Made by a program: the position numbers and the translations under genes | IMG/VR virus record: IMGVR_UViG_3300042485_001450 | Span: 1-27,147 of that record | Reading direction: 5' to 3' (one strand) | Length of the DNA: 27,147 nucleotides | Origin: a virus | Notes under the pieces: generated by a model | Told to the model about the DNA's origin: nothing | The model's database searches: none | The model's input: the letters and a program-made list of their open reading frames with translations, nothing else | Shown here: positions 307 to 25,964 of the stretch, piece by piece | Numbering within the stretch: position 1 is the stretch's first letter | How the letters are laid out: each line of letters opens with the position of its first letter

Positions 307-340
307 TATTTATTATAGCACGGTCAGGAAATGCTGTCAA
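307..340 (-). promoter_or_regulatory. psbA promoter: perfect sigma70 consensus overlapping a late promoter
   Basis: Read on the minus strand, TTGACA (335-340) and TATAAT (312-317) are separated by exactly 17 nt, and TGC precedes the -10 box, giving an extended -10. The -10 runs into AATAAATA (307-314), which matches the NATAAATA late promoter of T4-like cyanophages, so early and late signals share bases. The start would be near 305. Confidence 0.85.
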
Positions 341-418: not shown

Positions 419-523
419 GTGGCAAAATCAGCAAACAAAGGAAAAAAAGGATCTTCTGGATCAAAACAAAACCAAGGAAATGCATCTGCGAAGAAAGCAA
501 AAAATGGTGGCAAGAAAAAGTGA
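419..523 (+). CDS. Small lysine-rich basic protein (34 aa)
   Basis: This frame starts at GTG (419-421) and ends at TGA (521-523). The product is almost entirely Lys, Gly, Ser, Asn and Ala (VAKSANKGKKGSSG...), with a run of lysines at the C-terminus, and is predicted to be disordered and strongly positive. Such a composition suits nucleic-acid or capsid-interior binding, but I assign no function. The gene is 25 nt downstream of the second late promoter and 6 nt upstream of the next gene. The GTG start is chosen because no ATG lies in frame upstream. Confidence 0.55.
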   Translation: MAKSANKGKKGSSGSKQNQGNASAKKAKNGGKKK

Positions 524-18856: not shown

Positions 18857-19828
18857 TCAGTTTCCGATACGCTTCACGGCAATTCTTGATTTGTTGAGAA
18901 TGCTTCCAGCAAGAGGAACATAACCCAAGTCATCAGCAATCATTTGTGCCTTTGCACTCAGGGCATAGTTGAGTGCCTTCTGAATATCATCTGCCTTTGC
19001 ACCATTACCACTCTTATAGGCAAGAATCCAAGTCAGAGTAGAGATTGGATAAGCACCAGCAGCAGAAGGATTTGGATTTTCTCCAGCAAGGTTACTATCA
19101 AGAGCAATACTGTTCAGAGCAATAGCACCAGATTTAGCAGTAGGAAGAACAAACTGCCCTGCCTTGTTTTGGACTGCTGCTGCCTGAAGTTTGTTTGCTC
19201 TTACAAATCCGGTATTTACATAACCGATAGAACCAGCGGTTTGACGAATGGAACCCGCAACACCTTCGTTTCCTTTACCACCAATACCAACAGGCCACTT
19301 GACCGACTTACCTTCACCAACTTTGCTCTTCCATTCAGAAGAAAACGCAGAAAGTGAATTAGTAAATGCAAAGGTAGTTCCAGAACCATCAGATCGGTGA
19401 ACAACACGGACTGGACCAGAAGCACAACCAAGTTGCTTCCAATCCTTGATAGTTCCCAGGAAAACATCCACAACCTGCTTCTGAGTCAGTTTCAGAGTAC
19501 ATCCAGGTTTGTTATAGGCAACGGCAATCGTTCCTCCTACCATAGGAATCTGAACGACACCACGCTTTACTTTACTTGCCTCTTTTGACGAAATAGGTTC
19601 ATCAGTTGCACCGAAATCGACAGTTCCTGCGACATACTGACGGACGCCAGCACCGGAACCGACTGACTGATAATTCACACGATTACCAGTTGAAGCAGCA
19701 TAGTCCTGAAACCATCGTTGGTAAATGGGCGCTGGGAAGGTGGCACCAGCACCGTTCAAAGGAGGTCCAGCAAGAGCGGCAACAGGAGCAGCAACCAGAC
19801 CGACAGCAATAAGATTTTTGAGTTTCAT
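18857..19828 (-). CDS. pstS: Periplasmic phosphate-binding protein PstS (323 aa)
   Basis: Signal peptide at residues 1-20 (MKLKNLIAVGLVAAPVAALA). The mature start GAGATFPAPIYQRW, SVGSGAGVRQ (56-65), DFGATDEP (71-78) and RSDGSGTTF (145-153) are the phosphate-contact loops of PstS. It captures phosphate for the host PstCAB transporter; no other transporter subunits are encoded here. The start is ATG 19826-19828, because the longer frame upstream would contain the promoter. A Pho-box-like repeat overlaps the -35 region. Cyanophage pstS genes are known to respond to host phosphate limitation. Confidence 0.95.
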   Translation of the reverse strand: MKLKNLIAVGLVAAPVAALAGPPLNGAGATFPAPIYQRWFQDYAASTGNRVNYQSVGSGAGVRQYVAGTVDFGATDEPISSKEASKVKRGVVQIPMVGGTIAVAYNKPGCTLKLTQKQVVDVFLGTIKDWKQLGCASGPVRVVHRSDGSGTTFAFTNSLSAFSSEWKSKVGEGKSVKWPVGIGGKGNEGVAGSIRQTAGSIGYVNTGFVRANKLQAAAVQNKAGQFVLPTAKSGAIALNSIALDSNLAGENPNPSAAGAYPISTLTWILAYKSGNGAKADDIQKALNYALSAKAQMIADDLGYVPLAGSILNKSRIAVKRIGN

Positions 19829-19851
19829 AAAAAGTGAATAACTACAAGATA

Positions 19852-19895
19852 ATTCTATTTGAAGAAAATATAAAGTCAACTAAGATTAGGTTAAG
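19852..19895 (-). promoter_or_regulatory. pstS promoter with a Pho-box-like repeat
   Basis: CTTAACCT (19888-19895, minus strand) exactly fits the cyanobacterial Pho repeat PyTTAAPyPy(T/A). After 3 nt it is followed by CTTAGTTG (19877-19884), a weaker second repeat in the expected 11-bp phase. The -35 TTGACT (19874-19879) overlaps it, and TAGAAT (19852-19857) lies 16 nt downstream. This supports activation by host PhoB (SphR). Confidence 0.72.
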
Positions 19896-25825: not shown

Positions 25826-25964
25826 CTACATACACAATAGCCTTGCTCAGATATTTATGAGCAAGGCTAATTTCTAATTCTGATGCGTTTTCTGCGTAAA
25901 CTTGTTTCTTGAGTTTATTCAATTTTCTCTTTAATGTATAATAATCTGTTGGTATAATATACAC
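25806..25964 (-). CDS. Hypothetical protein (52 aa, GTG start)
   Basis: The frame from GTG 25962-25964 encodes VYIIPTDYYTLKRKLNKLKK and ends YLSKAIVYVDELQLY, a soluble, helical, basic-then-acidic protein. An exact late promoter lies 36 nt upstream. It overlaps the start of the GIY-YIG gene by 20 nt. Its codons for SLAHKYLSKA form the perfect 11-bp hairpin described separately, an unusual constraint on a coding sequence. Confidence 0.55.
   Translation of the reverse strand: MYIIPTDYYTLKRKLNKLKKQVYAENASELEISLAHKYLSKAIVYVDELQLY
25839..25868 (-). promoter_or_regulatory. Perfect 11-bp hairpin with a late promoter in its loop, inside a gene
   Basis: AGCCTTGCTCA (25839-25849) and TGAGCAAGGCT (25858-25868) are perfect complements with an 8-nt loop. 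The minus strand reads CATAAATA (25852-25859) across the loop, a NATAAATA late promoter. It lies within the end of the 52-residue gene and upstream of the GIY-YIG gene. Confidence 0.7.

Follow-up and report, generated by a model that had tools for sequence, protein, structure and literature searches.

In the virus record IMGVR_UViG_3300042485_001450, of which we analysed a window of 27,147 nucleotides (positions 1 to 27,147), psbA is preceded at 340-307 on the minus strand by a promoter in which a perfect host-type element and a phage late element overlap, and which probably serves the host RNA polymerase in two forms, carrying first SigA and then gp55, with a hand-over from one to the other. 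First, the segment reads TTGACA-N17-TATAATAAATA or, spelled out, TTGACA GCATTTCCTGACCGTGC TATAAT AAATA. The sigma70 (SigA-type) consensus is matched at 12 of 12 bases, with an exact -35 element TTGACA (335-340), a 17-nt spacer and an exact -10 element TATAAT (312-317) extended by TGC (318-320, a TGn extension). Second, the T4-type late (gp55-type) octamer AATAAATA occupies 307-314, its first three bases being the last three of the -10, so that bases 314-312 are common to both elements; 314-307 matches NATAAATA, the form by which we recognised a T4-type late promoter. All of these elements, including the perfect TTGACA-N17-TATAAT and the shared bases 312-314, had been described in a first-pass annotation, whose coordinates proved exact. 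The gene downstream starts with an ATG at 140-138 (minus), and its reading frame, which leaves the window at the left end, covers the N-terminal part of the photosystem II D1 protein (1-140) and has homologues annotated as psbA in many cyanophages.

When both strands were searched, TTGACA-N17-TATAATAAATA occurred a single time in the window, and one composite with at least 11 of the 12 sigma70 bases was observed versus 0.010 expected per dinucleotide-shuffled window. A further perfect TTGACA-N17-TATAAT lies at 18840-18812 (minus), just downstream of a pstS-like ORF (18857-19879). It precedes a short ORF (18790-18596) and is followed by neither AAATA nor a late octamer.

We then compared psbA upstream regions gathered from two viral-contig searches (with psbA of S-SRM01 and P-HM1 as queries), from isolates and from cyanobacterial genomes, after removal of near-duplicates. 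The composite was present in 53/73 and 34/74 non-redundant viral regions, where shuffled sequences gave an expectation of 0.08 and 0.22, respectively. It was also found at psbA of seven of the eight T4-like isolates, and at that of none of the seven T7-like isolates; Syn9, S-PM2 and S-SRM01 are examples of isolates that carry it. So as not to select for the late motif, we picked 94 non-redundant promoters, that of the window among them, by two criteria alone, the sigma70 score and the 17-nt spacing. In this set, 76 promoters have AAATA immediately after the -10, and 67 have the full NATAAATA at the same offset. The overlap is therefore present in related phages, which is where the first-pass annotation had placed the risk to its proposal. 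First, the five columns after the -10 hold 1.2-1.75 bits of information, versus 0.1-0.6 (mostly less than 0.35) in the spacer columns. Second, the conserved block stops exactly at the end of the late octamer. Third, the most variable base of the -10 is the fourth, that is the free N of NATAAATA. TTGAC is near invariant, as read in promoters picked on sigma70 score, the TG of the extension is found at the same place in 56 of the 94, and the perfect-consensus version is seen in nine, this phage among them. Kinship inflates these counts, but the diverged spacer argues against common ancestry as the whole cause. The full NATAAATA is missing in the other 27 promoters, of which nine read TATACTAAATA, a form that also occurs in Syn33; thus, the late site is not indispensable.

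These counts bear on the idea that an AT-rich -10 and an AT-rich octamer overlap by chance, for which one could invoke the 65% A+T content of the window, the shortness of the octamer and a minus-strand octamer total not above chance. However, with so few composites of this quality expected per window and the same offset kept in most relatives, we consider the probability of such a coincidence practically negligible, and the conservation result refutes it. It has also to be considered that the composite was acquired together with psbA from a cyanobacterial host, given that psbA itself is host-derived. Yet none of the 80 cyanobacterial psbA upstream regions, which include three of Synechococcus WH7803 and come mostly from genomes other than marine picocyanobacteria, carries the composite, and Puxty et al. 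found no upstream motif that the phages share with hosts (PMC5931967). We therefore rejected a host origin of the composite, which seems extremely improbable.

The overlap is also specific to the gene. Eight complete T4-like genomes contain 136 sites of the form TTGACN17-19TATNAT, and the composite is found at 5/5 of those at psbA versus 1/131 of the others (Fisher p = 2e-8), which indicates that the AAATA block is no general part of host-like promoters. Looser composites stand before psbD of S-PM2 and a porin gene of S-SRM01, and also before genes of P-RSM4 and P-SSM2, at or near DUF680 (T4-GC 241) genes. Among psbA-bearing records, gp55 is encoded by 8/8 that are T4-like versus 0/7 that are T7-like; as the window is a 27-kb fragment, it is from these T4-like relatives that we infer a gp55 in this phage. 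Together, these comparisons of sequences support the view that T4-like cyanophages conserve the overlap specifically at this gene, and that it occurs with gp55 and is absent without it. Since it tracks gp55 in this way, the simplest reading would be two forms of the polymerase with starts separated by a few bases, a reading that Puxty et al. 2018 have already published (PMC5931967).

We weighed this reading against a middle-stage promoter used by the host sigma alone, at which AAATA would be kept for other reasons, for instance because it melts easily or provides a favoured start region, and at which use by gp55 would be negligible. Consistent with this alternative, psbA belongs to the middle cluster of P-HM2 (PMC5082946), and several relatives retain the -10 next to a broken octamer (TATACTAAATA, TATTATATATA). 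However, the remaining strong host-like promoters of these phages would then be expected to carry AAATA as well, and the single composite among 131 such sites weakens this alternative; in addition, AAATA composites are absent from the 80 cyanobacterial psbA regions, and the conserved block has its end precisely at that of the octamer. We thus regard use by the host sigma alone as unlikely, although it deserves serious consideration.

The opposite alternative is a late promoter alone, the good -35 and -10 being a relic or due to chance. T4-type late promoters require no -35, which counts against this alternative, as does the retention of TTGAC and of the 17-nt spacing across very diverged phages. 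The octamer alone would be enough for late initiation of the T4 type (PMC1524935), but published psbA expression starts before the late stage (PMC5931967, PMC5082946), and we consider a purely late promoter very improbable.

Over the whole window, NATAAATA is not in excess on the minus strand (11 seen versus 8.7 expected), so that the case for late octamers rests on their position instead. Indeed, 10 of the 11 minus-strand octamers are intergenic, although coding sequence makes up about 85% of the window, and, leaving aside the one at psbA, 7 of the other 10 sit 20-30 nt from start codons, which makes them credible as promoters. Five ORFs are each preceded by a late octamer that starts 28-34 nt ahead of the start codon (at 2849, 16469, 22650, 25177 and 25859, minus strand); they comprise HNH_3, HNH and HNH_2 types, one SegE-type GIY-YIG and one endonuclease-like ORF without a Pfam match, and the background for an octamer at such spacing is 96/860 ORFs. 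The octamer before the HNH_3 ORF (2819-2439) is located in the loop of a long hairpin (2861-2819, minus, -17.6 kcal/mol) that ends at the start codon and resembles the arrangement delaying translation of T4 I-TevI (PMC2988022), and that at 25859 likewise lies in a hairpin loop. The loop of a T-tailed hairpin at 2389-2362, terminator-like on both strands and 261 nt upstream of a YkuD-family ORF (2111-1587), also holds AATAAATA.

Elsewhere on the minus strand, a 203-nt group I intron (about 22911-22709) interrupts a tRNA-Arg(UCU) gene (about 22946-22668) in the anticodon loop, as found by ARAGORN with introns allowed and by a match to RF00028 (63.2 bits). The split gene is shared with three contigs of the same sequence (L398-L400) and a diverged one (L397), and tRNA-Arg matches in other cyanophages are without the insert. 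According to a 2014 review, every phage intron known to that date was in a protein-coding gene (PMC3984707); the 735-kb uncultured phage record LR756501 has a tRNA-Leu(UAA) with an intron. Just upstream of the split tRNA, at 22989-22953 (minus), an abiF RNA (RF03085) scores 53.8 bits versus a gathering score of 37 and is present in the same four contigs. No AbiF-like ORF was recognised by eye among the ORFs adjoining this RNA, which could be the lone RNA of an abiF-type system.

The 5' UTR of psbA contains, downstream of the promoter, a PhotoRC-II leader RNA (RF01717) at 182-281 on the minus strand, which cmscan detected at 70.5 bits versus a gathering score of 39 over model positions 1-96 of 96. 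PhotoRC-II has been described before as a candidate cis-regulatory element in front of psbA (PMC2864571; PMC9602691). Judging from the usual distance between -10 and +1, the transcription starts are predicted within 300-306, at about 305 when sigma70 is used and at about 302-300 when the late element is. Both would be upstream of PhotoRC-II, and therefore both transcripts should have the same leader. PhotoRC-II is a leader and not a promoter: the composite was found with it in long leaders (7/7 tested), whereas relatives with short leaders, of which 0/13 have the RNA, retain the composite, which is thus not a by-product of the leader RNA. On the other side of the promoter, two divergent late-type octamers on the plus strand, TATAAATA (367-374) and, from the octamer scan, AATAAATA (387-394), face a small basic ORF with a GTG start (MAKSANKGKKGSSGSKQ..., 419-523, plus strand), read from the sequence and directed away from psbA.

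Data on relatives also inform the timing, for which the first-pass annotation had proposed that psbA could be transcribed by the host sigma early and by gp55 later, from nearly identical starts. Doron et al. 2016 reportedly classed the host-like promoters of T4-like cyanophages as middle promoters. In RNA-seq of P-HM2, all metabolic genes, psbA included, fall exclusively in the middle cluster (PMC5082946). Given that P-HM1, a near relative of P-HM2, has the composite, a late contribution there, if any, would not be dominant. Hence, "early", a term that Puxty et al. also use along with "late" (PMC5931967), is probably the wrong word for the host-type promoter of psbA. In contrast, the succession of host sigma and gp55 from neighbouring starts holds up as the reading best suited to the conservation, the gene specificity and the co-occurrence with gp55. 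In S-PM2d, psbA RNA has been measured through early and late infection (PMC5931967), and these data fit continued expression, from whichever promoter is used.

The composite layout is real, widely conserved and already known, since Puxty et al. 2018 reported, upstream of cyanomyoviral psbA, a motif 6 (sigma70 -35) and a motif 3 (-10) with a Gp55 site inside motif 3 (PMC5931967, Fig. 3c). Both parts of that description are found here, in the same gene, virus group and elements, with no difference in kind. What differs is that the version described here is the perfect-consensus one and has a PhotoRC-II leader, while S-PM2d was described with a 36-bp hairpin leader (PMC5931967). Pairs of early and late promoters had also been proposed at middle-gene homologues of RB49, S-PM2 and Syn9 (PMC2984593), that is likewise host-type and late-type elements for one gene in T4-like phages without MotA. 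That review mentions that early and late promoters overlap in RB49 and that both kinds occur upstream of S-PM2 and Syn9 genes, without giving a geometry (PMC2984593), whereas the elements at psbA share bases at a fixed 3-base offset. As to the T4 late promoters themselves (TATAAATA, used by gp55/gp33/gp45), the octamer here has the cyanophage form NATAAATA (PMC2984593) and, unlike them, it is embedded in a complete host-type promoter, at a distance of 166 nt from the start codon. Our analysis adds the quantification of the 3-base offset, the specificity for psbA among host-like promoters, the co-occurrence with gp55 and the independence from PhotoRC-II.

From the sequence, and from its being conserved, specific to the gene and found together with gp55, we propose how the two activities may follow each other at psbA. 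Before the phage sigma is made, the SigA polymerase would recognise TTGACA-N17-TATAAT with its TGC extension and start near 305. Later, gp55, together with gp33 and the gp45 clamp, would replace the host sigma, and the same core would use AATAAATA to start about 3-5 bases further downstream. Because the sites overlap, the two polymerase forms would be mutually exclusive, the first giving way to the second. In this manner, psbA would continue to be transcribed as the middle stage passes into the late one, with an unchanged leader, both transcripts carrying the PhotoRC-II RNA and differing in a few 5' bases. We also suggest, more tentatively and with chances slightly short of even, that selection acting specifically at psbA has made the overlap a hand-over device, which would let D1 synthesis continue through the sigma change while the leader stays constant. 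Phage psbA helps to sustain photosynthesis during infection, and its expression across the sigma change of the polymerase is a point that can be tested.
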